A stretch of 64,000 bases of DNA, from contig NZ_DS544873.1 in assembly GCF_000154725.1 (NCBI RefSeq), forward strand, positions 4,685,085-4,749,084, read 5' to 3'. Both the position numbers and the translations under genes were made by a program. The number at the start of each line of letters is the position of its first letter. Position 1 is the first letter of the stretch. Origin of the DNA: Kordia algicida OT-1. GTDB lineage: Bacteria > Bacteroidota > Bacteroidia > Flavobacteriales > Flavobacteriaceae. The notes under the pieces are model-generated. The model was not told the DNA's origin and did no database searches. It saw only the letters and a program-made list of their open reading frames with translations. Of the stretch, positions 41,587 to 64,000 are shown piece after piece.

Positions 41587-41618
41587 AAGTATGCTGAGCG
41601 GAGTTGAAGCGTACACTT
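41587..41618. repeat. REP-like short palindrome between convergent genes
   Basis: AAGTATGCTGAGCGGAGTTG followed by AAGCGTACACTT is an imperfect palindrome. Its core GAGCGGAGTTGAAGC resembles the GAGCGnAGTCGAAG-type elements found between genes in flavobacteria (family knowledge). It fills the gap between the peptidase E stop and the convergent T9SS gene. Confidence 0.5.
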
Positions 41619-42252
41619 ACAATCGAATAGCTTTCTTAGTCTCCAACGGAAGTCCATCAGCGACAATTCGTATCAAATACATGCCTTTTGGTTGTTTTGA
41701 AAGATCAATCTGCGGAATTTTTGAAAGCTTTGAATATGTTTTTGATTGTACCAATTGACCGTTCATGTTATACACATCTAAAGCAAGGTTTGTAAAATCG
41801 CTCTCTAGTTGTAGCTGAAATATTCCGCTAGCAGAAGGATTTGGAAAAAGTGTAGTCTGAGCAGGAACATACTTTTCTGTAGTATAAATAACTTTACAGC
41901 TAAAACCACAACTTATTTTCCGATTATTGCCATATGCAATAACAACCGTAGTGTCTAATGCTTCAAAATTGTTTTCCAATATTATTGAAACTTCTTTTTC
42001 CTTTGAAATAATAACTTCTTTCGTTTCAAAACCCAAGTAAGAAATCTCTAAAACGGTCATTCCATCAATGTCAATTGTAAACTGTCCGTTTTCGTTTGTA
42101 ATCGTTCCCTTTTTTGAATTTTTCACAAGTACATTCGCATTTGCCAATACGTTTTTTTCTTCATCGTATACAGTTCCTGTGAGGGTTCGTTTCTGTGCAA
42201 AGCAGCAAATAGAAATAGAAAATAATAGTGTAAAAAGTAGTTTTGTTCTCAT
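41617..42252 (-). CDS. Small secreted protein with carboxypeptidase-regulatory-like and T9SS sorting domains
   Basis: A 211-residue protein. Signal peptide RTKLLFTLLFSISICCFAQ is followed by a CarboxypepD_reg-like beta-sandwich (RTLTGTVYDEEKNVLANANV, GTITNENGQFTIDI, LEISYLGFETKEV) at residues ~22-100. A spacer with two Cys comes next, then a T9SS type A sorting domain (LFPNPSASGIFQLQLES, DLSKQPKGMYLIRI). It is probably exported to the surface; no enzymatic domain is present. It is divergent from the cyclophilin-like gene. Confidence 0.82.
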   Translation of the reverse strand: MRTKLLFTLLFSISICCFAQKRTLTGTVYDEEKNVLANANVLVKNSKKGTITNENGQFTIDIDGMTVLEISYLGFETKEVIISKEKEVSIILENNFEALDTTVVIAYGNNRKISCGFSCKVIYTTEKYVPAQTTLFPNPSASGIFQLQLESDFTNLALDVYNMNGQLVQSKTYSKLSKIPQIDLSKQPKGMYLIRIVADGLPLETKKAIRL

Positions 42253-44631: not shown

Positions 44632-47600
44632 TCAATCTACTGTAATCCGAATACCTTTTGTATGACTTCGAATCTCTGGCGCGTACATACTTTCAATCGT
44701 AGTGATTCCGTTAGAAAATACTCCAGTATTGTTTACGCGTAATTCATATGTTATCATAAACACACCTGCTGGAATTTTGTCAAAAAAGAAATTGCTACTC
44801 GCGTCACGCGTACTTTCAAAATACCCAACACCATCTTGCCATTTGTATTGCGACAGTACATTTACAGGTTCTAAACCTGCGGCGCGCATGTCTTTTAAGT
44901 GAATAAATTCAACGTCTTTTTTATTCCTAATCGTTAAACGAACGGTAATCAAATCACCAATTTTTAAGGAACGTTTTGCCAAAGGAACTAAGACTTCTTT
45001 GTCACCTTTCTTTTCTTTGAGAAATAATTCTTTGCTGATTTGTAAAGAAGCTTCATCGTTTTGAGAAACTTGATCTAATTCTTCAAAATACTGCCAATAC
45101 ACAGCGCCATAACCTGCTACTTTTCCATTGTTTTTCACTTTTATAGTAGCTTTCTCCTTGGTAATTTCATCTTTGTTCCAAGAGGTTTTAAAATATCCTG
45201 TTCCAGCTTCTTTTACGGTTTCTTCAAGTTTTTTGGTTTTGATTTTTTCGGTTCCTATGGTAAGAATAGTATTGTCTTTGATGGATGCAAATTGCTTCGG
45301 ATTCAATAGCAAAGCATAAATCGCTTTGGTAGTCGCTTTTGTCGTTGCCCATTTTGTGGTTTGTTTTTGTCGCAACAACCATAATTGCAATTCCTGAACT
45401 ATTTTTTCATCGTTGGTAATTTCTGCAAAAGCTTCCATCAACAATGCATGTGTTTCTACGGCGTGCGAGTTGTAATAACGACGCTCCGTTACTTCTTTCC
45501 AATACATGCCTTTTTCTTCCGACTTTACAGCAGATTCCTCCAGAGATTCCATAATTTTCTTCGCTTCTTTTCGTTGTCCCATTCGCGCTAACGAAAGTGC
45601 AACCATAGCTTTTTCTTCAATCGATAAATTCAACCAATCTTTTTGTAATGTTGTTAAGTAAAATTCCATCGCTTTTTTGACTTTTTTCGGAATTTCCATC
45701 ACATCAGGAATCATACTTCTGGTGTATAAATAGCGGATTTGTTGCTTGAATTTGTAGTCGCTTGGCGATTGTACCAAGTTCGCATGTGCCACTAAAAAAC
45801 GATCGTCTGTGTATTGATATGCAAAATCCATAATTTGATTTGGTTCACTATTTTTCTTGTACGAGATTGCATTCAATTTTACCAAATGAGCATATGTTTG
45901 TAAAATATGAAGTGTGATATACAAGTTTTCTTTTCCGCCAGAAAACCAAGGGAATCCGCCAGATTCTCCTTGTAAATCGTCCAATTTTTGCCACATTTCA
46001 AACTGCAAATCGCTCATGATTTTTTTGTCGAATAGTTTCGCCAATTGTTGTTTTTTCTCCGTTTCCGAAACTGCATCACGCGCCCAAGGAGTTTCCGAAA
46101 TTAATAAAGATTTTAATTCGGGATTTTTCTCTAAATCAGACGTCAATTGTCCGTTTGCTTTCCACGCTTCAAACACTTCTTGTATTTTTGGCGAACTTTG
46201 TAAAATATGTATGGCAATCGCATTGGCGTACAAACGCGAGAAGGTTTGCTCAGCACATTCATACGGATATTCTATTAAATACGGCAATGACTGAATTGCG
46301 CTCCATGTCGGGTTTGACGTATATTCTAGCGTCAATTTGTGTTGCTTCAAACTTGCACTTGTGTTGTTGGCGAGTTTGCTAAAAGTGACTGTTTTTTCTT
46401 CATTAGGTTTTACCCAAAAAGGTTTTGCTTCCGTGATAAGCACACTGTTTTTTAATACAGGCAACGCACTTTCTTCTCCATCAGAGAACGTTCCCGCTTT
46501 AGCGATCACTTTATACTGAATTGCATTAAAACCTTCTGGAATATAGAGTTTCCAAGATATATTGGTGTTTCCTTTTTTATCAATCGTAAAGGCTTTGTTT
46601 TTATCTTCTAAATGAACTTTTGCGTCAATCGATTCCATCGTATATGCGTCATACAAACGAAGCGACGCAATTCCTTTGACAGATTTTTGCTGTAAGTTTA
46701 CGACTTTCGTCGAAATGACAATCGTATCTTTTTCACGTAGAAAACGCGGCATATTTGGGACAACCATCAATTCTTTTTGCGTAACGGCATTTTTTTCAAT
46801 AATTCCGTACATTCCGTTTTTTTGATGCGCCAATAGTTGAAACTTCCAACGTGTTAACGATTCTGGAACTTCAAATTCTACCGCAACATTTCCTTCGGCA
46901 TCTGTTCGCAAATGTGGATAGAAAAACGCCGTTTCTTTCAGATTTTTTCGGGTTTCTACCGTATTAATATCTTCTTCCGTTAAGCCAACTGTGACTTCCA
47001 TTCCGTTGATGTTTTCCTTACGTGTTCCGTATTTGGTTGTAATAATAACAACTCCACCAGCACCACGACTTCCGTAAATAGCAGTTGCAGCAGCATCTTT
47101 TAAAACACTCAAAGAAGTGATATTGTCGCTATTCATGCTTCTAAAAGCATTTTGACTTACAGGAACACCATCAATTACAAATAAAGGTTCTATATCGCTT
47201 TTTAATGAGTTACGACCTCTGATAACGATCACGCCGTTTTCTCCCGGAGCGCCATTTCCTGTATTTACCGTAACTCCTGCGGAAGCTCCTTGTAAAATTT
47301 GATCTAGCGTTGTTATCGGTACTTGCTCAATAGTGTCACCATCAACCGTTGCAATTGCCGATGCTACTTTCGCACTATTTACTGCGCCACCATAGGCTAC
47401 CACAACAACTTCATCAAGTTGTTGCTCATCTGGTCTTAGTACAGTATTGATGTTATTTAGCTTTCCGACAACAATTTCTTCCGTATGATAACCTATATAA
47501 CTGATTGCTAGAATATCATTAGAAGTTGCATTGATGGTATACAAACCATCAAAATCTGTCGTGACACCTTCTTTAGTTCCTTTGATAATAATAGAAGCGC

Positions 47601-50600
47601 CTGGTAATGGCATTCCAGTATCGTCAACTACATGTCCTGTGATGTTTCCTGAAAAAACTGGCTTTTCTTTGATGGACTTTTCTCTTTTGAGTTTTTGTAA
47701 GTATTTGTGATTTTCGCTGTGTATATTTTTAAAGCTTAATCCGAACCATTTGAATTTAAGATAGTTTCTAAAGTTTGGCGTTGTTAAATGTGTTACTAAG
47801 TTGTAAATTTCATACGAACTTGAGTTGCCGAAAAAGTTACTTTTTACCCTAGGCGCGTAATATTGATTGTCAAAAAAGTAGTCAAAATCCGCATCCCACG
47901 TATGTGGTATGAATTGATCTAGCGATTCATCATACATAGACGCTAATACTTCGGCGTCGCTTCCTTTTTGGTCTAAGTCTAAAATTTTAAACTGCCATTT
48001 TTCTTTTTGTCCAGGTTGCAATTTGTTGCGAAATGTGGCTGTTTCAATCGATAGGAATTTGTTTCTTTCGTAGAGTTTGAACGAATATTTTTGCTGATAG
48101 AATTCATTAAACTTCGTATACAACATGTGCAGTGTAATTTCTTCGGTAAATTTTTTATCAAGCGGAATTTTTATAATTTTAGAACCTTTTTCAATAGTGA
48201 CCGATTGTGTTTTTACCAACTTTTCTTTGTGGAATAAGTGCAACATCACATTCAGAGAATCATCGCGCAAAGCGGTAGCAAGTTTTACCTTTATAAAACC
48301 ATCTTTTTTGAATTCGCTGTTGAGCACATTGTATTCAAAAAGTGTATTTCCGGTAGCATAGAGGTCTTTTGGATCAGTAAGCCAGAATGTTTCTGTATTG
48401 CGAACGGTATCTTTAGTTTTTTCGTCAAAAGCATAGGTTTCCATAGTATATTCGCCAGTTTCCCAAGTAGAAGTGTTTATGCTAAGTTTGGCATTCGTTT
48501 CCGTATTGAAAGTCATGTTGGCAACTTCGGCACCTTTTTTATTGCTTTCCTGTTTTTCTTTTTCGTCATATAGAATGTGCGGAAATTGTTGGATAAATTT
48601 TTCTTTCGGAATAATTTGATTGTCAGGAAAACGCCACGGACGTCTTTTAAGAATTCGTTCTGTATTGATGCGCTTGTATATTTTTACACGACCATTTGTG
48701 GTAACGGGAACATAGTTTACATCTTCGGCAGCAATGTTAATTTGAAATGTTTCGTTACGATCTTTTTTTGTAGGAATCATCACGCGGAGATTGAATCCTT
48801 GTTTGGCAGCAGTAACAGATTTCCACGCCGTTTGCGTTTCGCCATTGATATCTGTAACATCAATAGAAATACTGTAACGGTACGATTTGATATGTTCTTT
48901 TTTAATATTTATAGCTGTTTCAGCCAAAAACGGAATCACAAAGTTTCCTTTTTCGTCAGTTTTTAGTGTTCCTTCTTTGATGATTTTCTTTTTTGAAAGA
49001 TCACGATATATTCGATAATGTCTATAATCAATGTTTGCTTCGCGTTCAATTGTATAACTAACTTTAGCATTGGTAACGGCACTTCCGAGCAATGCTTTTG
49101 CTTTTCCTGAGATTTTTACAGAATCGTTGAACGTGATGTTTTCCGTTAACGGATTCATGACAACTTCAAAGCGTGGACGTTTGTATTCTTCTACGTTAAA
49201 ATTGGCTTCGCCTTCTTCAAAATCGTGCAAAAAATCCCAAAAAGGATGTTCGCCTTCGTAGTCATCATCTTCGTCTACAATAATGCTAAATCTGCCTGTA
49301 GTTGCGTTTTTAGGAATTTTGAACGAGTTGCTAAACGTACCAAATTCGTTGGTTTTGAGGCGTAATGTTTCAAAATCATCATCTACAGATTGTATGCTTA
49401 CTTCACAATGTACATTTGGTACTACAGAACTAACTCCGTTTTTTTGTTGAATAAAAATTACTTTGTAATGCACGGTTTGTCCCGGACGATAAATGCTTCT
49501 GTCCGTAAAAATAAAAGGTTTGGCTTCCCAGTTTTTAGGTTCTCCTTTTTTGGACTTATAATTACGAGCTAGGGAAGTGTTCTGATAGTATAATGTATCG
49601 TTTTGGTATATGATGTATTTTTTAATTCTGTTGCTTTTTTTACGTTTGCGAATTTTGGCATTTCCTAGAAGATTGGTTCTAACAAATTGATTGATGATTT
49701 TCTTTTCGTCAAAAATTTTAATCGTTGCATTGTAAATCGGTTTTCCAGTTTCACGATGTACAATTGTATACATTTCTGCATCGTTCAATTCAGTAACAAT
49801 CTCCGATAAGTTTGTTTTTTGCATTATGTCATACGCCAATACTTCCGATTTTTTATGGTGATGAGAACCATCTGAAAGTGTGACTAAATATCTTCCAACA
49901 GGCAGCTTTGGAATGCTGATTTCGATCGAATGATCGTAATAATCTTTCGGAATTTTGGTGTTGTAACTTTTTTCTAAAACGGGTTTGTTGTTTTTGATAT
50001 AGGCTGCAATTACCGAATCTCGTTTGTTATATTTTACACCTTCTAAGAACGTATGCGAAATACGATACGTTTTTAAATATACCGTATCAACATTTCTCAA
50101 TGAAATACGCGAAAGCATCGGTTTGTTGGCAGTAGTATATTCTTGAATTTTGAATTCTAAGCTCTTTTGTTCAATTTTCTTTTTAAGAATTTGACATTTA
50201 ATACTTCCTTCCGAGTTTGGATAGTTTGCGATTACTTTTTCTGCAATTGCCAACGCATTTACACGTAACATTTGTTTATTGTCTTGCGAACGTGTGTAGT
50301 ATTTTTGAGAAGTATTTACATAATGTGACGCCAATTCGTATTGAATTAACGCTTCTATTGGATCATTCTCGTATTGTTTTGCCAATTTTTGCAATGAGTT
50401 TTCATACCATTCGTTGCTATCATTTTTTTGTGAATTTGAAAGGGCATATTTTAAGCGTTGTAATACAACATCTATAAGCGCTTCTTTTTTATTGCTATAG
50501 GTTTTTTCAAGTTTTTTATATAGTGCTAATGTGTTTGTTTTGGCGACAACTGTTTTGCTATCAATTGGCAATTTTTGTTTGATAAATATGGATGATGCAG

Positions 50601-51267
50601 AAAATTCTTTTTCGGTAATTTTGTAAACATCATCATTTCGATATCCGTAGGGAACTTGATTTTTGTAAAAATCTAAAGCATTGTGTATTAAAAGATCATA
50701 CAAATTTGTACGGTACTTTGTGGTATTTGCTTTTCCGTCTAAAAGTAGCATGTAATCTTTTATTGGAAACTGTTGCAGTTCGGATTCTTGCGCTATAGAA
50801 TGCTGAAAATGTTTGTGTATTTGAGAAATAAATGTTTTGGTGTCCCACAATTGAAAGTCAGTAGGAATCGTATCAGAATCCACAATAGATCGCTGTCGGA
50901 GTTTGTATTGATATTTATTAAAATATTGCGCTAAAAATCGCGCGTACATATTTTCTAAAATTGCATTTGTGGGAAACGAATGTTTGTCAATTTCTGTTCT
51001 TAAATTTTGTAAAACTTCCACTTCAGAATCATCCGTAAGGAATAAAGAAAACTTTGCCCGATACAACAAACTTCTTACAATTTGCACCGTATTTTGTTCC
51101 TCATTGGCATGTTTGTAAATGCGTTGTACAATTCTATTGGCGGAAGCTGGTTTTCCTTTAATTTCCAATTTTTCTACTTTTTCCCAACGCTTATCGTAGT
51201 TATATTGGGCAAAACTTAGTTGAAAACACAAGAATGCAAAAATGCTCAGTACGTAAAAATTTTTCAT
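44632..51267 (-). CDS. Alpha-2-macroglobulin-family protein with inserted SusC-type plug module
   Basis: A 2211-residue exported protein; MKNFYVLSIFAFLCFQLSFA is the signal peptide, and an upstream Met at 51300 is less suitable. The N-terminal ~400 residues are helical. MG domains include the MG2 hallmark FIFTDRSIYRPGQTVHYKVI. The thioester site YPYECAEQTFSRLYAN lies near residue 1670 and is followed by the alpha/alpha toroid and a C-terminal receptor-like domain (MRAAGLEPVNVLSQYKW). Between the MG and A2M parts (residues ~1205-1410) sits a CarboxypepD_reg plus TonB-plug/SusC signature module. Bacterial A2Ms trap attacking proteases in the periplasm or at the surface. Confidence 0.9.
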   Translation of the reverse strand: MKNFYVLSIFAFLCFQLSFAQYNYDKRWEKVEKLEIKGKPASANRIVQRIYKHANEEQNTVQIVRSLLYRAKFSLFLTDDSEVEVLQNLRTEIDKHSFPTNAILENMYARFLAQYFNKYQYKLRQRSIVDSDTIPTDFQLWDTKTFISQIHKHFQHSIAQESELQQFPIKDYMLLLDGKANTTKYRTNLYDLLIHNALDFYKNQVPYGYRNDDVYKITEKEFSASSIFIKQKLPIDSKTVVAKTNTLALYKKLEKTYSNKKEALIDVVLQRLKYALSNSQKNDSNEWYENSLQKLAKQYENDPIEALIQYELASHYVNTSQKYYTRSQDNKQMLRVNALAIAEKVIANYPNSEGSIKCQILKKKIEQKSLEFKIQEYTTANKPMLSRISLRNVDTVYLKTYRISHTFLEGVKYNKRDSVIAAYIKNNKPVLEKSYNTKIPKDYYDHSIEISIPKLPVGRYLVTLSDGSHHHKKSEVLAYDIMQKTNLSEIVTELNDAEMYTIVHRETGKPIYNATIKIFDEKKIINQFVRTNLLGNAKIRKRKKSNRIKKYIIYQNDTLYYQNTSLARNYKSKKGEPKNWEAKPFIFTDRSIYRPGQTVHYKVIFIQQKNGVSSVVPNVHCEVSIQSVDDDFETLRLKTNEFGTFSNSFKIPKNATTGRFSIIVDEDDDYEGEHPFWDFLHDFEEGEANFNVEEYKRPRFEVVMNPLTENITFNDSVKISGKAKALLGSAVTNAKVSYTIEREANIDYRHYRIYRDLSKKKIIKEGTLKTDEKGNFVIPFLAETAINIKKEHIKSYRYSISIDVTDINGETQTAWKSVTAAKQGFNLRVMIPTKKDRNETFQINIAAEDVNYVPVTTNGRVKIYKRINTERILKRRPWRFPDNQIIPKEKFIQQFPHILYDEKEKQESNKKGAEVANMTFNTETNAKLSINTSTWETGEYTMETYAFDEKTKDTVRNTETFWLTDPKDLYATGNTLFEYNVLNSEFKKDGFIKVKLATALRDDSLNVMLHLFHKEKLVKTQSVTIEKGSKIIKIPLDKKFTEEITLHMLYTKFNEFYQQKYSFKLYERNKFLSIETATFRNKLQPGQKEKWQFKILDLDQKGSDAEVLASMYDESLDQFIPHTWDADFDYFFDNQYYAPRVKSNFFGNSSSYEIYNLVTHLTTPNFRNYLKFKWFGLSFKNIHSENHKYLQKLKREKSIKEKPVFSGNITGHVVDDTGMPLPGASIIIKGTKEGVTTDFDGLYTINATSNDILAISYIGYHTEEIVVGKLNNINTVLRPDEQQLDEVVVVAYGGAVNSAKVASAIATVDGDTIEQVPITTLDQILQGASAGVTVNTGNGAPGENGVIVIRGRNSLKSDIEPLFVIDGVPVSQNAFRSMNSDNITSLSVLKDAAATAIYGSRGAGGVVIITTKYGTRKENINGMEVTVGLTEEDINTVETRKNLKETAFFYPHLRTDAEGNVAVEFEVPESLTRWKFQLLAHQKNGMYGIIEKNAVTQKELMVVPNMPRFLREKDTIVISTKVVNLQQKSVKGIASLRLYDAYTMESIDAKVHLEDKNKAFTIDKKGNTNISWKLYIPEGFNAIQYKVIAKAGTFSDGEESALPVLKNSVLITEAKPFWVKPNEEKTVTFSKLANNTSASLKQHKLTLEYTSNPTWSAIQSLPYLIEYPYECAEQTFSRLYANAIAIHILQSSPKIQEVFEAWKANGQLTSDLEKNPELKSLLISETPWARDAVSETEKKQQLAKLFDKKIMSDLQFEMWQKLDDLQGESGGFPWFSGGKENLYITLHILQTYAHLVKLNAISYKKNSEPNQIMDFAYQYTDDRFLVAHANLVQSPSDYKFKQQIRYLYTRSMIPDVMEIPKKVKKAMEFYLTTLQKDWLNLSIEEKAMVALSLARMGQRKEAKKIMESLEESAVKSEEKGMYWKEVTERRYYNSHAVETHALLMEAFAEITNDEKIVQELQLWLLRQKQTTKWATTKATTKAIYALLLNPKQFASIKDNTILTIGTEKIKTKKLEETVKEAGTGYFKTSWNKDEITKEKATIKVKNNGKVAGYGAVYWQYFEELDQVSQNDEASLQISKELFLKEKKGDKEVLVPLAKRSLKIGDLITVRLTIRNKKDVEFIHLKDMRAAGLEPVNVLSQYKWQDGVGYFESTRDASSNFFFDKIPAGVFMITYELRVNNTGVFSNGITTIESMYAPEIRSHTKGIRITVD
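47030..47655 (-). other. Inserted CarboxypepD_reg + SusC/RagA plug module inside the macroglobulin gene
   Basis: It encodes GHVVDDTGMPLPGASIIIKG and DFDGLYTINATSNDILAISY (carboxypeptidase-regulatory-like), then LDEVVVVAYGGAVNSAKVAS, the plug TTLDQILQGASAGVTVNTGN and the SusC/RagA signature PLFVIDGVPVS, SVLKDAAATAIYGSRGAGGV. No beta-barrel follows; the frame returns to macroglobulin sequence (NLKETAFFYPHLRTDAEGNV). The paralogue at 59399 has a short unrelated linker at the same place. Confidence 0.85.
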
Positions 51268-51543
51268 CTGTGGATTTGTTTCTATTGGTTGATAGGACAA
51301 ATAACTACTAATAGCCTTAAAGATACAATATCAAATTAGGCAACACGCATTATCAATTAGGGAACTTGTTTTGTTTTTAGATGAGATTCTTATAGTTTTA
51401 GTACCAATCTCGATTTTAAACAATTTCTTTAAACTAAAAGTCTTACAAACACGTTATGGGGTATGAATCATTATTATTTGTGATTCAAAAAATAATCAAC
51501 GATTCAGCAACGAATCATTTGTATTCCTGTATCTTTAAAACTT

Positions 51544-56505: not shown

Positions 56506-59394
56506 ATGATTGAAACTATAGGATTAATAACAGTAGGGACTTGGTTAGGTAATAAACTTTTAGGCAAAGGTTTTGATAAAATCTATTCCAAAGTTACCTC
56601 TAAAAGTTTCAATGCTAAATTTTATAAGAAAGTAGATGCGGCCGCAAAAAAGTTACAGGAAATATATCCAAAAGTACTTGGTGGGAATATAGAATACTTC
56701 TTTAAAAATCAGGATGTTTTTAATGAGTTAATGAAACTCTTATTTATAAATTCAAAAGTTAGTTATGAGCTTATAGAAGAGAAGTTTGACATGGAAACTC
56801 TTCCTAAGGACTTTATATTGGATTTTGTGAAATTACTAAAAGAAGAACTTTATTTAGATGACTATTTTAAAGATTTACTAGCAAACAAAGAAATTTATTT
56901 AATTGTAGTTGGAATATCTAATGATATTAAAGATATCAAAGCAGTCTCTTTATTATCTCACAAAGAAATTAAAAGTATTCAAAAACTGCTACGGGCTAAA
57001 ATTCATGATACCTTTTCTATAAGTACTTTTCTGAAAAATTATAAAAAATTTCTAGAAAATAATTTTTCTCAATTGAATTTTATCGGATTAGGACTTGAAT
57101 CAAATATTAATAAAGGAAAACGGAAAAAATTGAAAGACTTATTTGTTAAGCCTACATTTTCTATCGCGATTAATAAATTGAATCAAGAATTTATTTTAAA
57201 TACTGTTCCTGATATACAAAAAAATGAGTTTGTTACTCTTAGGCAAATATTTAATTTTAATAAAAACCTTGTAATTATTGGAAATCCAGGTAGTGGTAAA
57301 TCTATATTGACAAAATTTATTGCGCTTAAAATCTTTAAGAAAGATAAATCAGTTTTTGAAACAGAGTCAATTTTTGATAGGATACCATTTCGTGTTGAGT
57401 TACGAAAGTTTCATGCTTTCAAGAAGGAGTATAATAAAGGATTGATAAAATATTTAAAATCTCTATTAGAAATTGAATATAGTCTTGACAATATCACAGA
57501 TGATAATATTGAAAGTATTCTCTTAAATCAACAAACAATGATGATATTTGATGGCTTAGATGAGATTTTTGACTTAAATGATAAGATTTCAATTCGAAAT
57601 GATATTCAAAATTTTATAGATAAATACGAAAATTCTAGAGTTGTTGTTACATCAAGAATTATTGGTTATAGTGACGCGTCATTTCAAGAAGATTCGATGA
57701 TTCAACTTTCAATTAATGACTTTGATAATGACCAAATAGAAGAATATGTGAAAAATTGGTATTCTATTGAAGAAGAAGATCAAGACATACGTGAAAGAGA
57801 AATAGAAGATTTATTATCCAAACGAAATCTGATAGATGATGAATTGATATCCAATCCATTATTACTTTCTTTAATAGTAATTTTATATAGGAATAATTTA
57901 AAAGTTCCTGAATCAAAATTAGAAATTTATCAATCATGCACTAAAACTTTGGTTGACAAATGGGATCATAGTAAAGAAATGGAGATAAACTTAAGTCAAG
58001 AAATTTACAAAAGAAAAGATACCATTTTTGCTGACTTAGCTTATTGGCAGTATAAAGAATTAAGTACAGAAGATGGAAAAGTAACTTATCAACGGGCAAA
58101 AAACACAGTAGCAAAAACTTTGGTAGAAAAATTGAAGATATCTGATGAATTTACGACTGATAGTGAATCGGAAGATTTCTTAACTTACGCTCAAAAGCGG
58201 TCATTATATTTTGATAATAACTTTACACACAAGACTTTCCTAGAATATTATACAGCTTATTGGATTTTCACAAATATTGAAAAGAAACATAAGAAAGATG
58301 AGAGAAATGATTTAATATCTGAGTATATTATAAACCCATATTGGCATATTGTATTAGAATTATTACTCAATATGATTGATAAAGATCAAGCTGATAATGA
58401 GATAATGGATGATTTAATTAATTACCAATTGGAAAAAAATAAAATATCTTCTGTTTTTTTCTTGCAAATATTTAGTACTGTTCAAAATGTTAGTTTACAG
58501 GTTTTTAAGAATGTGTTTGATGTGTTTTTACACGTGTATTTGGATAAAAAAAGTACTCAAAATTATAAAAATGGAGTAAAATATGATAGGGAAATGAGAG
58601 CTTATTTTGTCATTACAGAGAAACTTTTTTTAGAAAAAACATTTAGAAAAATAATTTCAGAATCTATTTTTGATTTATTGAAAAGTAAAACTAATATAAG
58701 TAAACTGTTATTAAGCTTGTATTTAGAATTAAAAACTTCGGAAATAGATGAAAGTAATATAGATTCCAATGATATAAAGATAAAGTGTAATTTCATTAGT
58801 TCTTGCAATGAAGAGCTATTTGAAATGACTCCATTGATATATGTAATGAAAGAGTTTATTACAAATGAATTAAGTATACATAGTAACCCTATTCCATTTG
58901 CCTCAAAGATTTTAGAAAAGTTTGATAAAACAACTCTTGATTATTCTTTGAAGGCTGAGTTTGCAAATTTCAGATATTTACCTTTACAAGTGATTTTTTT
59001 AAAAACGGTATTATTTAGTGATGATATACGATTACTTAAAAAGTATTTATTTTTTTGTGAGAAAAACAATATTGAATTGACAAATTTAGTCAATCATGTA
59101 TTTTCAAGATTATTTTTTATAGAAAAAGATTTTAAATTTCAAAATCTTATTGAAAATTTCAAAAATTTAAATGATAATAGTTATTTTCATTTATTATTAG
59201 TAGCCATCTATCAAATTCGTATGTATAGTGTGTATGAGGAAAATCATAACTTGGATTTATCCCTTTTAAATGATTTAAATTTAGATGATGATAGTTTAAA
59301 AAAAATATACTTCATTTTAGATAAGCAAAATATGACAAAAGAACTAAGGCAATTTTTGATAAAAGAATGTAATTTAGAGAATCAAAAATCGTAA
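56506..59394 (+). CDS. NACHT-domain NTPase (bNACHT-like, putative defence protein)
   Basis: A 962-residue protein, very AT-rich. Residues 1-230 are a helical N-terminal domain. The NACHT ATPase follows with Walker A IIGNPGSGKSILTKFIALK (G259-S266), Walker B MMIFDGLDEIFD (about 345-356), sensor RVVVTSRIIGYSD and NPLLLSLIVILY. The C-terminal ~400 residues are helical with a TFLEYYTAYWIF motif typical of bacterial NACHT proteins. Bacterial NACHT proteins are STAND ATPases, several of which protect against phages (family knowledge); no separate effector domain is obvious here. It stands alone between a lipoprotein gene and the second macroglobulin gene. Confidence 0.88.
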   Translation: MIETIGLITVGTWLGNKLLGKGFDKIYSKVTSKSFNAKFYKKVDAAAKKLQEIYPKVLGGNIEYFFKNQDVFNELMKLLFINSKVSYELIEEKFDMETLPKDFILDFVKLLKEELYLDDYFKDLLANKEIYLIVVGISNDIKDIKAVSLLSHKEIKSIQKLLRAKIHDTFSISTFLKNYKKFLENNFSQLNFIGLGLESNINKGKRKKLKDLFVKPTFSIAINKLNQEFILNTVPDIQKNEFVTLRQIFNFNKNLVIIGNPGSGKSILTKFIALKIFKKDKSVFETESIFDRIPFRVELRKFHAFKKEYNKGLIKYLKSLLEIEYSLDNITDDNIESILLNQQTMMIFDGLDEIFDLNDKISIRNDIQNFIDKYENSRVVVTSRIIGYSDASFQEDSMIQLSINDFDNDQIEEYVKNWYSIEEEDQDIREREIEDLLSKRNLIDDELISNPLLLSLIVILYRNNLKVPESKLEIYQSCTKTLVDKWDHSKEMEINLSQEIYKRKDTIFADLAYWQYKELSTEDGKVTYQRAKNTVAKTLVEKLKISDEFTTDSESEDFLTYAQKRSLYFDNNFTHKTFLEYYTAYWIFTNIEKKHKKDERNDLISEYIINPYWHIVLELLLNMIDKDQADNEIMDDLINYQLEKNKISSVFFLQIFSTVQNVSLQVFKNVFDVFLHVYLDKKSTQNYKNGVKYDREMRAYFVITEKLFLEKTFRKIISESIFDLLKSKTNISKLLLSLYLELKTSEIDESNIDSNDIKIKCNFISSCNEELFEMTPLIYVMKEFITNELSIHSNPIPFASKILEKFDKTTLDYSLKAEFANFRYLPLQVIFLKTVLFSDDIRLLKKYLFFCEKNNIELTNLVNHVFSRLFFIEKDFKFQNLIENFKNLNDNSYFHLLLVAIYQIRMYSVYEENHNLDLSLLNDLNLDDDSLKKIYFILDKQNMTKELRQFLIKECNLENQKS

Positions 59395-59398
59395 ATCC

Positions 59399-62300
59399 CT
59401 AATCCACTTTCACACGAACACCTTCACTATGACTGCTAAATTCTGGTGCGTACATGCTTTGAATCGTAGAAATTCCATTGGAGAAATCCCCAGCATTATT
59501 GACACGTAAATCGTATTCAAATACAAAAACTCCTTTTGGTAAATAGTCAAAAAAGAAATTTGTACTCGCATCTTTTGTACTTTCATAATACCCCAAACCA
59601 TCTTGCCATTTGTATTGCGACAATACGTTAATTGGTTCTAAACCAGCCGCGCGCATGTCTTTCATATGCACAAATTCCATTGGTCGGTCGTTTCGTAACT
59701 CAATGCGTACACGAACCAAATCGCCCACTTCAAGTTTAGTATTTTCGTCAATTTCTGTGATAATTTCACCAGTAGCATCATACGTACGTTTGAACAATTT
59801 TTTGCTCAATTTTAAAGACGTTTCCGCAGTGGTAATTTTATCCAAATCTTCAAAATATTGCCAGTACAATCCGCCCCAAGCAATGCCTTTTCCTTTTTTT
59901 GTTAGTGTAACTTTTGCCATTTCTGGTTTCACTTCGTTTCCATTCCAAGATTTCTTAAAATATCCTGTGCCAGCTTCTACTTTTACAGCTTCCAAATCGG
60001 CAGGTGTAATTTTCTGATCGCATACAGTTACCTCAACCATGTCCGTAACTGAAAGCCAGTCGCTTCCTTGTAATAATAACGCGTACACCGCTTCCGTTGT
60101 TGATTTTGTGGTAGACCAACGATTGGTTTGTTTGTGCTTTAACAACCATATTTTTAAATTATCTACCGTAGTGACATCGTTTGAAATTTCAGAAAAAGCT
60201 TCAATCATCAATGCCTGCGTTTCAATTGGCGCTTGATACCAATACCAAGAAGCCGTATTTTCTTTCCAATACATACCCAATTCGTCACTCGTAATACTAT
60301 TTTCTTCTAACGAACGTAAAATTGCCGTTGCCGTTTTTGGATGATTCATTCGGTGTGAAACCATCGCCATCAAACCTTTTGCATACAAACGACGACTAAG
60401 CCAATAGTTATCTATTTGATCTAAATAATAGTCAGAAATCGTAGTAACTTCTTTTGATTTTGGAATTTCAGGGAAAAAGCTTCGCATGTATAAATAATGC
60501 AGTTGTGAATACGACAAATGATCTTTAGATAAGTCTGCTTTCTTATTGTATTTGCGAATATCCTTGTATTCTTTTATAAATTCAGCATCAAGATAACGCA
60601 TTGCTTTTTGAATGATTTTTGTGGTTTCTTTGTCATTCACGGAAACATTTAATTTCTGTAAATGTCCCAAACCTGTAATGATGTGTTGTGTGACGAATCG
60701 GTTTGCGCGTCCGCCTTTAAACCAAGGAAATCCACCAGAAGATAATTGCATTTGAGTTAACTTCTGAATGCTTTTAGATTGCTCATTTTTCATGCGATTG
60801 AGATCGAAAAGTAACGCAATTCGTTTTTTCTGTTCCGTTTCAGATAGTGCGTCGCGAACCCAAGGCGTTTCTTGAATAATCAATGATTTTAATTCCTGAT
60901 TCTTCTCTAAATTACTCAACAAAGCATCAGAAGATTTCCACTGATTGAATACTTCTTGAATTCTCGGATTGCTATTCGCAATGTGACTCGCTAGCGAATT
61001 CGCGTAATAACGAGCAAAAGTTTGTTCTGCACATTCATACGGATATTCCATTAAATACGGCAACGCTTGCACTGCATACCACGCAGGATTGGACGTAATT
61101 TCTAAACTTAGTTTGTGGTGCTCCAAACTTGATGATGCATTGGCAGATCCAGTCGAAGCGAGTTTATCTAACGTAAACGTTTTGGTTTCGTCGGAACGAA
61201 TCCACATTGGCAACGTTTCTGTCACCAACATTCTGTTAGACAATACAGGAAGTGCACTTTGTTCTCCATCACTAAATTCGCCAGCTTTTGCTGTAATGGT
61301 ATATTGAACAGCCTGAATTCCTTTTGGAATGTACAATAACCATGAAACTTGCGTGTTTCCGTTGGCTGTTACCGAAAATGATTGTTTGGGAGTTCCTGTG
61401 CGCGGAAATAATGCGGGATTGATATCGTTTCCTGTCATAGGATCAATAAGTTGTAACATGGCAGTTCCACTTATATTTTTATCAGAAAGATTTGATATTT
61501 TACTACTAATGACAATTTCATCACCTTCACGCAAAAAACGTGGTACATTTGGCAATATCATCAACTCTTTTTGTGTCACTGTTGAGAGCGTTTCTGTTGC
61601 GCTATTCAAGTCTTTGGTATGTGCTAACAGTTGTAAATTCCATTTGGTTAAGGCTTCTGGAGTAGTGAATGTAAACGAAACATTTCCGTCGGCATCTGTT
61701 TGTAATTGTGGAAAGAAAAATGTGGTTTCTTGCAGATTTTTTCGAGGAACTACAGTTTCTATTTCTTTTTTTGTCACTTTTTCTTTTTGATATACGTTTC
61801 CTCTGTAAGTGTTAAAATCATCACCATCACCATCTCCAAGCGATTCTTCTTCGGCGTCGTTAACATAACCACGACCAGCATTGCTGAAAGCCAATACGCT
61901 TCCAGATCCTTCAACGTCATCCATTACAGGTGCAGCCATTCGTTTTTCACTTACACTATTTGCTTCAAGAGCCATTTTTTTAAAGCGTACTCGTGAACGT
62001 TGGTAAAAATAGAGTCCGAACCAATTTAAACGATCGTAGGATTGGTAGTGGTATTCTTTGTCTATAGTTTCGTAAGCATTGAATCTTGTTGTTCCAAAAC
62101 TTCGGTTGGCGTTGATGTTGATGTAACTGTAATATTGTGGTCTGTTGAATGGAGAAAATTGCCAATTGTGTTCTCTGAATTCATCCAAAGACGCATCGTA
62201 CATGCTCGAAAGCATTTCTGCGGCTACTTTTTCGCCTTTTGGACCTTTGATGCGGAAACTCCAAGTTTCTTCTTGTGCAGGTTTTAGTTTGTCTCTAAAC

Positions 62301-64000
62301 GTGAGTGTTTCAATAGTTAATTGCGATGGCGGATAACTTACCACAACCGGAATTTGTTGCTCAATGAAACTGTTAAAAATTGTGGTAGTACAGTGAATTT
62401 TAAAACCACCTTCATCTTCTTTGTTTACAGGAATTCGGATGACTTTTTTCCCATTTTCTGTAGAAACCAAGTAAGATGCTATAAGGCGTTTGTTTTTTTC
62501 AACATCAACGGTTACTTGTAGGTTTTTGACGCCTGATAGAATGGTCAATACCACTTCTTCGTTTGGTAGATATTTATCTTTGTCAGTTAAAATTTCTACG
62601 AGTTTGTTGTCAGTTGTAGTTTTATCTTTTTTATCAAAAACAGTGGTAAATGCTATGTCTTTGATTTCATAACCGTTTTCGTCGGTTGTGGTAAGTTCGA
62701 CAATGTACTTTCCGGATTCCCAACGTTTTATTTTTCCCAGAGACATTTCTGCGGAAGCGCCAGTATTAAAAGACTCACTAAAGACATTTTTGCCTTTTTT
62801 CCAAAATTTATAATCTTGTTCTTCTTTAGTATACGCTTCGTGCGGAAACAGTTCTTTAAAATCTTTTTCGGAGATAGACGTATAATCGGGAACAGGAATC
62901 TGACGTTTGCGCAATACACGATCGGGCGCTTGTAGTTTGTGAATGGTAATGGTTCCTTTGGCAGGAACTTTTTCGCCATTTAAGTTTTTCGTGATAATTT
63001 TAAGTTGCTGATTTTTTTCGGAAACATCTAGTTTTTGAGGAACAACTACGCTTGCTTTTAGACTGTGATACCCAACACGTACAATGGTTGAGGTGCTTCG
63101 CGTTTCACCGTTGATATCTGTGATATCTGCCGAAATTTCATAGTCAAATACAGGTAATAATTTTTTATCTACACTAGCATCTGGAATGGCTTTAAAGGAA
63201 ATTTTAAAGTTTCCAGTAGCGTCTGTAGTCGTTTCTCCGTTGGTAATTTGTTGCGATTTTGTATTGATATACGGTCTTCTCCAATATACCCAACTTGGAT
63301 AACGCGGCGTACGTTTTACAGAATAAATTACTTTGGCATCTGAGATTACACTTCCAGCAAAAGCTTTAGCGTTTCCTTTGGTAATTACGCTGTCGTTGAT
63401 GGCAAATGTTTCAGAAATTGGTAAGAATTCTGCTGAAAATTTTGGGCGTTTGTATTCTTCCACAGAAAAGTTTGTACTTCCTAAATTTCGCCCAGTTTGT
63501 CGGATGGTAATTGAGTAATTTCCTGTGAGTCCGTTATTTGGTAAAACAAATTCTCCTTTTATGGAACCGTATTCATTTGTTGTAAGTGTGATTGTTTTTA
63601 CTTCTTGATAGTTGGCATCTCGTAAAAATACGTCTACTTTTTCGTTAGTGAGAATTGTAGAAGTTGTTCCATCTCTGCGCAATAGAATTCCTTTGAAATG
63701 TACAATTTGTGCAGGTCTGTAAATACTTCTGTCAGTGAACAAAAAGCCAACATTGATAGGTTTATCTTCGCCAAAACTACGATTGGATATGTAGAAGTTG
63801 CCAAAATGTGCGGTGTCTTTTTTTGTGGCAATGGTAACATTGATATCGCTCATACGATAACTACGCTCACTTTCTAGCGTGATGCTTCCCGTATTGTCTG
63901 TAGTAAGTGTTTTGCTTCTGGATTTTCTTTCGTAACCAAGGTCGTAATCTATATGCACATTTTGATTCACAATTGGTGTTCCGTCAGTTCGGTTGACTAC
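59399..64000 (-). CDS. Alpha-2-macroglobulin-family protein (5' end outside window)
   Basis: At least 1533 residues; the frame is open through 64000, so the start lies to the right. MG2 hallmark FLFTDRSIYRPAQIVHFKGI, further MG domains, thioester site YPYECAEQTFARYYAN (codons near 61028-61060), toroid and C-terminal domain (MRAAGLEPINVLSQYKW). It is a paralogue of the gene at 44632. Where that protein carries the SusC-type module, this one has a short acidic linker (DDVEGSGSVLAFSNAGRGYV, EEESLGDGDGDDF). It probably acts as a surface or periplasmic protease trap. Its stop lies 5 nt from the NACHT stop. Confidence 0.93.
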   Translation of the reverse strand, partial: VVNRTDGTPIVNQNVHIDYDLGYERKSRSKTLTTDNTGSITLESERSYRMSDINVTIATKKDTAHFGNFYISNRSFGEDKPINVGFLFTDRSIYRPAQIVHFKGILLRRDGTTSTILTNEKVDVFLRDANYQEVKTITLTTNEYGSIKGEFVLPNNGLTGNYSITIRQTGRNLGSTNFSVEEYKRPKFSAEFLPISETFAINDSVITKGNAKAFAGSVISDAKVIYSVKRTPRYPSWVYWRRPYINTKSQQITNGETTTDATGNFKISFKAIPDASVDKKLLPVFDYEISADITDINGETRSTSTIVRVGYHSLKASVVVPQKLDVSEKNQQLKIITKNLNGEKVPAKGTITIHKLQAPDRVLRKRQIPVPDYTSISEKDFKELFPHEAYTKEEQDYKFWKKGKNVFSESFNTGASAEMSLGKIKRWESGKYIVELTTTDENGYEIKDIAFTTVFDKKDKTTTDNKLVEILTDKDKYLPNEEVVLTILSGVKNLQVTVDVEKNKRLIASYLVSTENGKKVIRIPVNKEDEGGFKIHCTTTIFNSFIEQQIPVVVSYPPSQLTIETLTFRDKLKPAQEETWSFRIKGPKGEKVAAEMLSSMYDASLDEFREHNWQFSPFNRPQYYSYININANRSFGTTRFNAYETIDKEYHYQSYDRLNWFGLYFYQRSRVRFKKMALEANSVSEKRMAAPVMDDVEGSGSVLAFSNAGRGYVNDAEEESLGDGDGDDFNTYRGNVYQKEKVTKKEIETVVPRKNLQETTFFFPQLQTDADGNVSFTFTTPEALTKWNLQLLAHTKDLNSATETLSTVTQKELMILPNVPRFLREGDEIVISSKISNLSDKNISGTAMLQLIDPMTGNDINPALFPRTGTPKQSFSVTANGNTQVSWLLYIPKGIQAVQYTITAKAGEFSDGEQSALPVLSNRMLVTETLPMWIRSDETKTFTLDKLASTGSANASSSLEHHKLSLEITSNPAWYAVQALPYLMEYPYECAEQTFARYYANSLASHIANSNPRIQEVFNQWKSSDALLSNLEKNQELKSLIIQETPWVRDALSETEQKKRIALLFDLNRMKNEQSKSIQKLTQMQLSSGGFPWFKGGRANRFVTQHIITGLGHLQKLNVSVNDKETTKIIQKAMRYLDAEFIKEYKDIRKYNKKADLSKDHLSYSQLHYLYMRSFFPEIPKSKEVTTISDYYLDQIDNYWLSRRLYAKGLMAMVSHRMNHPKTATAILRSLEENSITSDELGMYWKENTASWYWYQAPIETQALMIEAFSEISNDVTTVDNLKIWLLKHKQTNRWSTTKSTTEAVYALLLQGSDWLSVTDMVEVTVCDQKITPADLEAVKVEAGTGYFKKSWNGNEVKPEMAKVTLTKKGKGIAWGGLYWQYFEDLDKITTAETSLKLSKKLFKRTYDATGEIITEIDENTKLEVGDLVRVRIELRNDRPMEFVHMKDMRAAGLEPINVLSQYKWQDGLGYYESTKDASTNFFFDYLPKGVFVFEYDLRVNNAGDFSNGISTIQSMYAPEFSSHSEGVRVKVD

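Follow-up and report, generated by a model that had tools for sequence, protein, structure and literature searches.

A thioester alpha-2-macroglobulin (A2M) gene of Kordia algicida OT-1, located on the reverse strand within the 64,000-nucleotide stretch of contig NZ_DS544873.1 analysed here (positions 4,685,085 to 4,749,084; hereafter the window), carries in its interior a segment that, on sequence grounds, derives from the N-terminus of a SusC transporter and that is modelled to occupy the bait site of the protease trap. Trees indicate that such pieces have been captured by A2M baits more than once, and we suggest, at a confidence evenly divided for and against, that the bait has been rebuilt from the cell's own SusC N-terminus and would work as a decoy substrate. 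The gene and the module are laid out as follows (window coordinates; residues of the fused protein):

44632..51267, reverse strand: fused A2M gene, with a SusC-derived segment inside a thioester A2M
47026..47652, reverse strand: whole SusC-derived module, residues 1217-1425
47401..47643, reverse strand: SusC N-terminal extension (NTE), CarbopepD_reg_2, residues 1220-1300 (Pfam)
47386..47421, reverse strand: TonB-box motif QLDEVVVVAYGG, residues 1294-1305
47050..47370, reverse strand: TonB plug domain, residues 1311-1417 (Pfam Plug, E 1.3e-16)
47032..47121, reverse strand: SusC/RagA signature, residues 1394-1423 (NCBIfam TIGR04057, 53 bits against a cut-off of 46.2)

The derivation of the module from SusC is established by the joint presence of the SusC/RagA features NTE, TonB box, plug and SusC signature. 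The CarbopepD_reg_2 match reaches E 5.9e-18, computed for the whole protein with Pfam, and the closest solved relatives of the module in a PDB sequence search are SusC and RagA proteins (8aa4, E 1.6e-38). The TonB box reads LDEVVVV and matches VDEVVV of SusC Bt1763, which PMC7782687 describes, on the basis of deletion and alanine mutants, as required for function. In contrast to SusC/RagA transporters, the module is internal, lying more than 1200 residues into the protein, and no beta-barrel follows the plug, since TIGR04056 matches only profile positions 2-214 of 981 (residues 1219-1432; 267 bits, under the cut-off of 368) and PF00207 begins at residue 1457. The initial annotation, which had placed a barrel-less SusC/RagA plug module at 47030-47655, is thus borne out with boundaries of 47026-47652.

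The remainder of the protein provides the framework of a bacterial A2M:

49246..49515, reverse strand: MG2 domain, residues 596-685 (Pfam)
46672..46932, reverse strand: A2M domain PF00207, residues 1457-1543 (Pfam), immediately C-terminal to the module
46246..46257, reverse strand: thioester motif CAEQ, residues 1682-1685, which fits CXEQ
44674..45045, reverse strand: bMG10 domain, residues 2086-2209 (Pfam), containing the EXMY-type motif ESMY at residue 2203

The MG2, A2M (PF00207) and bMG10 matches all exceed their Pfam gathering scores, and these domains, together with the CXEQ thioester and the EXMY-type motif, are shared with the type-I A2Ms of E. coli (YfhM/ECAM) and Salmonella (SaA2M). 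The open reading frame (ORF) is listed from a TTG at 51300 and then comprises 2222 amino acids; the likelier start is the ATG at 51267, preceding MKNFYVLSIFAFLCFQLSFAQ, from which the protein has ~2211 residues. By eye, the N-terminus is a signal peptide of the signal-peptidase-I type that has no lipobox. The fused protein is best explained as a periplasmic type-I (thioester) A2M, although it differs from YfhM and SaA2M in the missing lipobox and in its genomic setting, the gene positions of its own genome revealing no adjacency to pbpC: PBP1C, at 3807139, and a third A2M, at 3817228, lie ~8 kb apart, and the fused gene is 0.9 Mb off. Adjacency to pbpC is frequent but not obligatory for A2Ms of this type. 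The third A2M (open frame of 1870 amino acids) and PBP1C, at 3807139-3817479, form a pairing of the classical yfhM-pbpC type.

In an AlphaFold2 model compared with known structures, the module is situated between two halves of an MG domain, a position that corresponds to the bait, or anaphylatoxin, site.

47653..47913, reverse strand: low-confidence linker from the first half of the split MG domain to the module, residues about 1130-1216 (pLDDT block means of 39-53 for model residues 161-250)

The structural matches include 4ziq and 4rtd, that is, A2Ms of the E. coli/Salmonella type in which the bait likewise precedes MG7 within a split MG domain, as well as C3b and C5b. The match to the E. 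coli A2M came from structural comparison rather than from sequence, as PDB sequence searches with the window protein and with a second query (A1) returned SusC-type proteins and animal A2Ms and no E. coli A2M among their matches. Several rows of the comparison have an rmsd near 20, the model being multi-domain with uncertain domain placement (pTM 0.44), and Foldseek alone gives low TM-scores (TMq 0.13-0.26 among the matches listed). Within the insert, the first domain resembles the SusC NTE fold and is predicted to be well folded, the TonB-box loop has block means of 26-40 and is predicted to be unstructured, and the plug rises from 27-33 over its first 20 residues through 50-53 up to model residue 400 to 68-75 beyond. 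In the model, the insert thus takes up the bait site of the A2M, a place that in complement C3 and C5 belongs to the anaphylatoxin, which lies just before the C3b alpha' chain; the suggestion in the initial annotation that the module sits in the bait region gains support. The Kordia bait would then be a folded NTE plus plug, whereas that of YfhM and SaA2M is a short disordered stretch. Judging by how it aligns with C3b and C5b, the fused protein would resemble complement C3/C4/C5 in having an entire additional domain where an A2M fold is cleaved for activation. The inserts themselves appear to be unrelated. That of Kordia matches CarbopepD_reg and Plug by Pfam and the SusC NTE fold in its first domain; moreover, it has been captured repeatedly and keeps changing, whereas the anaphylatoxin is one ancestral domain.

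The window contains a second A2M gene, locus L357 (designations beginning with L, G and f are our handles for loci, genomes and families), in which the equivalent site can be inspected:

59399..64000, reverse strand: paralogous A2M lacking the module, its 5' end beyond the window (ORF of 2073 codons from stop to stop)
61730..62107, reverse strand: bait of the paralogue, in the position that the module takes in the fused protein, 126 residues with pLDDT <50 (model residues 280-405)

None of CarbopepD_reg_2, Plug, TIGR04057 and TIGR04056 is found in the paralogue by Pfam and NCBIfam, and its model is disordered where the module sits in the fused protein. The paralogue had been proposed as a clean before/after comparison, but it belongs to another branch of A2Ms whose members mostly carry the module or relics of it: the corresponding set of 25 rows in the A2M backbone tree comprises 10 full, 11 partial and four motif-free baits, and the paralogue is rejected as the state before insertion.

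The fusion is genuine and widespread. That an assembly or annotation artefact joined two genes, a doubt that the initial annotation had raised together with a possible lack of the fusion elsewhere, is as good as impossible, given that the K. algicida genome is one contig of 5.03 Mb, that the fused gene occurs, its frame intact, in eight of 11 Kordia genomes, and that several further genera share the architecture. The seven other Kordia proteins are 72-77% identical over the C-terminal 782 residues, and the remaining genomes (G003, G009 and G010) have the paralogue type only. A full module is found in at least 21 of 199 family genomes: by hand count, 24 have a long-frame match to the junction profile that begins at position 33 or earlier, of which 18 have the full module and six a partial one (G151, G068, G038, G202, G169, G185), and G024, G166 and G187, with junction matches from 73-76, prove to have full modules on full reading. 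Among the best 80 of 583 loci, a whole-module match, defined as one stretch from profile position 8 or earlier to 206 or later of 210, occurs in Kordia, Flavobacterium, Nonlabens, Lutibacter, Lacinutrix, Zhouia, Wocania, Myroides, Roseivirga, Fulvivirga and others, and NTE and plug match as two separate stretches in Tenacibaculum and in a Prevotella metagenome-assembled genome (L286, ORF of 1880 codons).

The phylogeny of modules and SusC N-termini demonstrates, as far as sequence can, that baits have captured SusC pieces more than once, from different SusC groups in different lineages. The tree comprises 23 A2M modules and 26 SusC N-termini (49 rows), hand-picked from the 59 modules and 62 SusC rows of a quick 121-row tree that excludes sequences matching fewer than 175 profile positions. 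All eight modules from Kordia cluster as a single clade (100/99), nested in a group that contains Kordia SusC genes (100/100). Other genera contribute 15 modules: three (L082, L084, L229) belong to the wider Kordia group but lie outside the Kordia module/SusC group itself, and 12 are divided between two further groups that contain different SusC genes. Modules form a single clade in none of 200 bootstrap trees, at least four label changes are forced by both the 49-row and the 121-row trees, and a single origin is rejected by the approximately unbiased (AU) test (p-AU 2.3e-10, a value that is not blind because the rows were chosen after the first tree had been seen). One old fusion inherited by all carriers is ruled out by tree and test.

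The Kordia SusC gene most closely related to the module is 34-106 kb away from it in six of the eight genomes; in G008 the two are on different contigs, and in the genome of the window they are 2 Mb apart. The window module is 66-67% identical to this own-genome SusC, compared with 55-61% to its own orthologues, and SusC orthologues among Kordia are far more alike (93% median). The module and SusC L002 have a long stretch in common, but recent gene conversion is not supported, as even in the most similar block the codon is shared at only seven of the 18 identical residues. Elsewhere, the L137 bait (G332) shows similarity (46-50% over 34-37 amino acids) to the region around the TonB box in three own-genome ORFs of transporter size, and for the L198 bait (G224) an own-genome ORF of the SusC type matches with 79% identity over 34 amino acids. 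The K. algicida genome also contains an apparently broken SusC-type gene (L004, at 884878), with NTE and plug in a 329-codon ORF and the barrel part in a separate ORF.

Across Bacteroidota, baits are hypervariable in sequence yet favour SusC as a source. Baits were cut between conserved anchors from 124 A2M ORFs and yielded 122 distinct sequences; for three ORFs that had no left anchor 150 residues were used instead, and the 719-residue bait L125 is mis-cut. They range from a full NTE, TonB box and plug through NTE with TonB box, or plug only, to relics such as EEVVVTGYG or LSGKVAGV and low-complexity linkers. Five motif profiles were derived solely from 62 SusC sequences, their thresholds being set at the 99th percentile for shuffled baits. 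A scan with them calls the TonB box in 61 of the 122 baits, the plug start in 49, IRG in 46, VIDG in 41 and the plug end in 42; control stretches of equal length from the same proteins give 0-3 of 122 for each motif. The profiles come from Flavobacteriaceae SusC and miss other families, leaving baits L188 and L198 uncalled. Many loci had been fetched for looking fused, and prevalence is therefore taken from a phylum sample of 80 baits, the long-frame A2Ms among the matches listed to a Kordia-based profile, excluding the window copies. At least one SusC-type motif is present in 42 of these 80, where ~3 would be expected by chance (four of 80 upstream and none of 80 downstream controls; 3.6% of 1600 shuffled baits), and nine have four or five motifs. 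By Pfam, CarbopepD_reg_2 matches 19 and Plug 13 of the 80, and by NCBIfam TIGR04056 matches 24, TIGR04057 13 and other TonB receptors up to eight. Further matches comprise Ig-like domains (at most four members each), single matches including one TSP_3, and BamP in 10 baits (NCBIfam, best E 1e-8), a candidate NTE cross-hit. Four baits (L181, L182 and L184 of f19 and L136 of f3) carry no SusC motif and have a CarboxypepD_reg-type domain, recognised in L181 by Pfam and in the others by eye, which is a candidate SusC NTE or another Ig-like domain. In addition, D-rich TSP_3-like repeats lie beside or in place of a TonB-box relic in L183, to which the sole TSP_3 match is assigned by sequence, and by eye in L174, L175 and L112 (f2).

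The commonest single motif of the phylum sample is the TonB box, with 28 of the 42 motif-bearing baits, 18 of which have no C-terminal half of the plug. This bears on the possibility that TonB-ExbBD grips the box, either holding the trap near the outer membrane or pulling on and unfolding the plug, so that the trap would be armed by the proton motive force. The match of LDEVVVV to the functionally needed box of Bt1763, the modelled position of the box in the loop of low confidence that joins the NTE to the plug, and the NTE-TonB box unit in a protein of the same genome that by eye is of the VWA type (L009) would all suit such coupling. However, the box has drifted in some Kordia copies (LESVMIVASG in L022), the box is not called in 14 of the 42 motif-bearing baits (of these 14, L193 and L202 clear their motif threshold by a narrow margin), and 38 of the 80 have no motif at all; the box is rejected as a universally kept bait motif, and we regard TonB coupling as rather improbable. 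The binding to TonB envisaged in the initial annotation is accordingly possible for the Kordia protein, with its intact box, but a general need for the box is unlikely. A SusD-like partner, also envisaged, is unsupported, because SusD is positioned on the outer face of the SusC barrel and the module has no barrel.

Alternatively, the bait loop may simply accept insertions, with abundant and often-recombining SusC genes supplying N-termini that afterwards decay. The partial pieces in many baits fit this explanation, as do the frequent state changes even between near relatives, such as L102 with a full bait and L114 with no plug. In a 70-row A2M backbone tree, starred branches force at least seven changes in the full-module state (four or five motifs), a count that is noisy because labels were set by motif numbers. 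SusC pieces within other proteins point the same way. Set against this, the NTE, plug and signature are retained in all eight fused Kordia copies despite a median dS of 1.4, domains from other sources are rare in the 80 baits (the one TSP_3, and Ig-like and BamP matches that are possibly NTE cross-hits), and the Kordia module looks constrained by purifying selection, like the MG part, albeit less so than the same region of SusC. The median dN/dS over 28 pairs is 0.236 for the module, 0.219 for the MG part and 0.149 for the TED part, and 0.082 for the corresponding region of SusC orthologues, all rough values because median dS in the A2M regions is 1.2-1.9 and some pairs are undefined. Neutral tolerance of this kind seems to us unlikely, and we place it second, after the decoy bait and before TonB coupling.

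For the decoy bait, a mechanism can be outlined. A barrel-less plug with an exposed TonB-box loop would be a protease-sensitive copy of the periplasmic face of the transporter, so that proteases attacking transporters from the periplasm would meet the same features in the bait. A cut within the module would spring the trap, the CAEQ thioester would then couple to the protease, and rapid bait turnover would mirror a changing set of proteases. Barrel-less plugs are likely to be protease-sensitive, as is known from other transporters; in our own data, the low to middling pLDDT points this way. A broader version is that Bacteroidota traps repeatedly copy the periplasmic face of their own transporters, renewing the bait from SusC genes, so that attackers of TonB-dependent transporters, whether proteases or protein-import parasites, would cut the trap instead, and that the retained TonB box may also let TonB engage it; this integrated decoy we advance tentatively, as clearly less probable than not. 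Several points weigh against a decoy built by repeated capture. The dN/dS ratios are rough, as stated; module evolution is fast, and the AU test is subject to the long-branch attraction of its model; 38 of the 80 baits of the phylum sample show none of the five motifs; and the NTE is predicted to be well folded and would thus be a poor bait alone. Moreover, SusC segments occur in proteins that are no traps, named here by eye as VWA-type and M56-like, and capture therefore need not concern proteases.

VWA proteins of Bacteroidota (YfbK-like by eye) are an unrelated carrier of the same pieces, NTE, TonB box and plug in L376 or NTE and TonB box in L009 (own genome, 621045), but differ from A2Ms in having neither trap nor bait region. 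L376 is from G224, the genome of L198, and is 73% identical over 207 amino acids to the own-genome SusC that the L198 bait resembles; the plug-VWA junction is matched in four of 198 phylum genomes, one being the source of the query. L016 (own genome, 246203), by eye an M56/BlaR1-like membrane protein, has a C-terminal plug-type stretch, PLFILDGKEV...VSVLKGDSATEKYGKKGKNGVVIVETK. NTE-TonB box-plug is seen here as a travelling module beyond transporters. The window contains a further reuse of the SusC N-terminus, a 211-amino-acid protein (41617-42252, reverse strand) that combines a SusC-type NTE (CarbopepD_reg_2), the TonB-box-like TTVVIAYGN and a Por_Secre_tail (type IX secretion) and has a likely signal peptide by eye.

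To our knowledge, the origin and change of bacterial A2M baits have been little studied. In the present case, sequenced genomes reveal the donor genes, the acceptor site and capture on more than one occasion, and bait evolution therefore becomes testable. Were the decoy reading true, bacteria would have a counterpart to the integrated decoys found in plant immune receptors and to the insertion of the anaphylatoxin in complement, and transporter N-termini would be protease targets in the periplasm. The component families are known, and the fused architecture is probably already in sequence databases under automatic names; new here are the bait-site placement, the repeated capture, the preference of baits for SusC and the apparent constraint on the module. 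Among the literature matches listed, in a search that subscription papers largely fell outside, no paper describes an A2M-SusC fusion, and the part of PMC4007534 that mentions A2Ms among large bacteroidial proteins names neither TonB nor plug.

Two neighbouring genes complete the surroundings. A protein with an eCIS core domain (PF13699; 43307-44536, forward strand) adjoins the fused A2M gene on the opposite strand, and a NACHT-domain NTPase of 962 amino acids (56506-59394, forward strand), possibly a defence gene, lies between both A2M genes.

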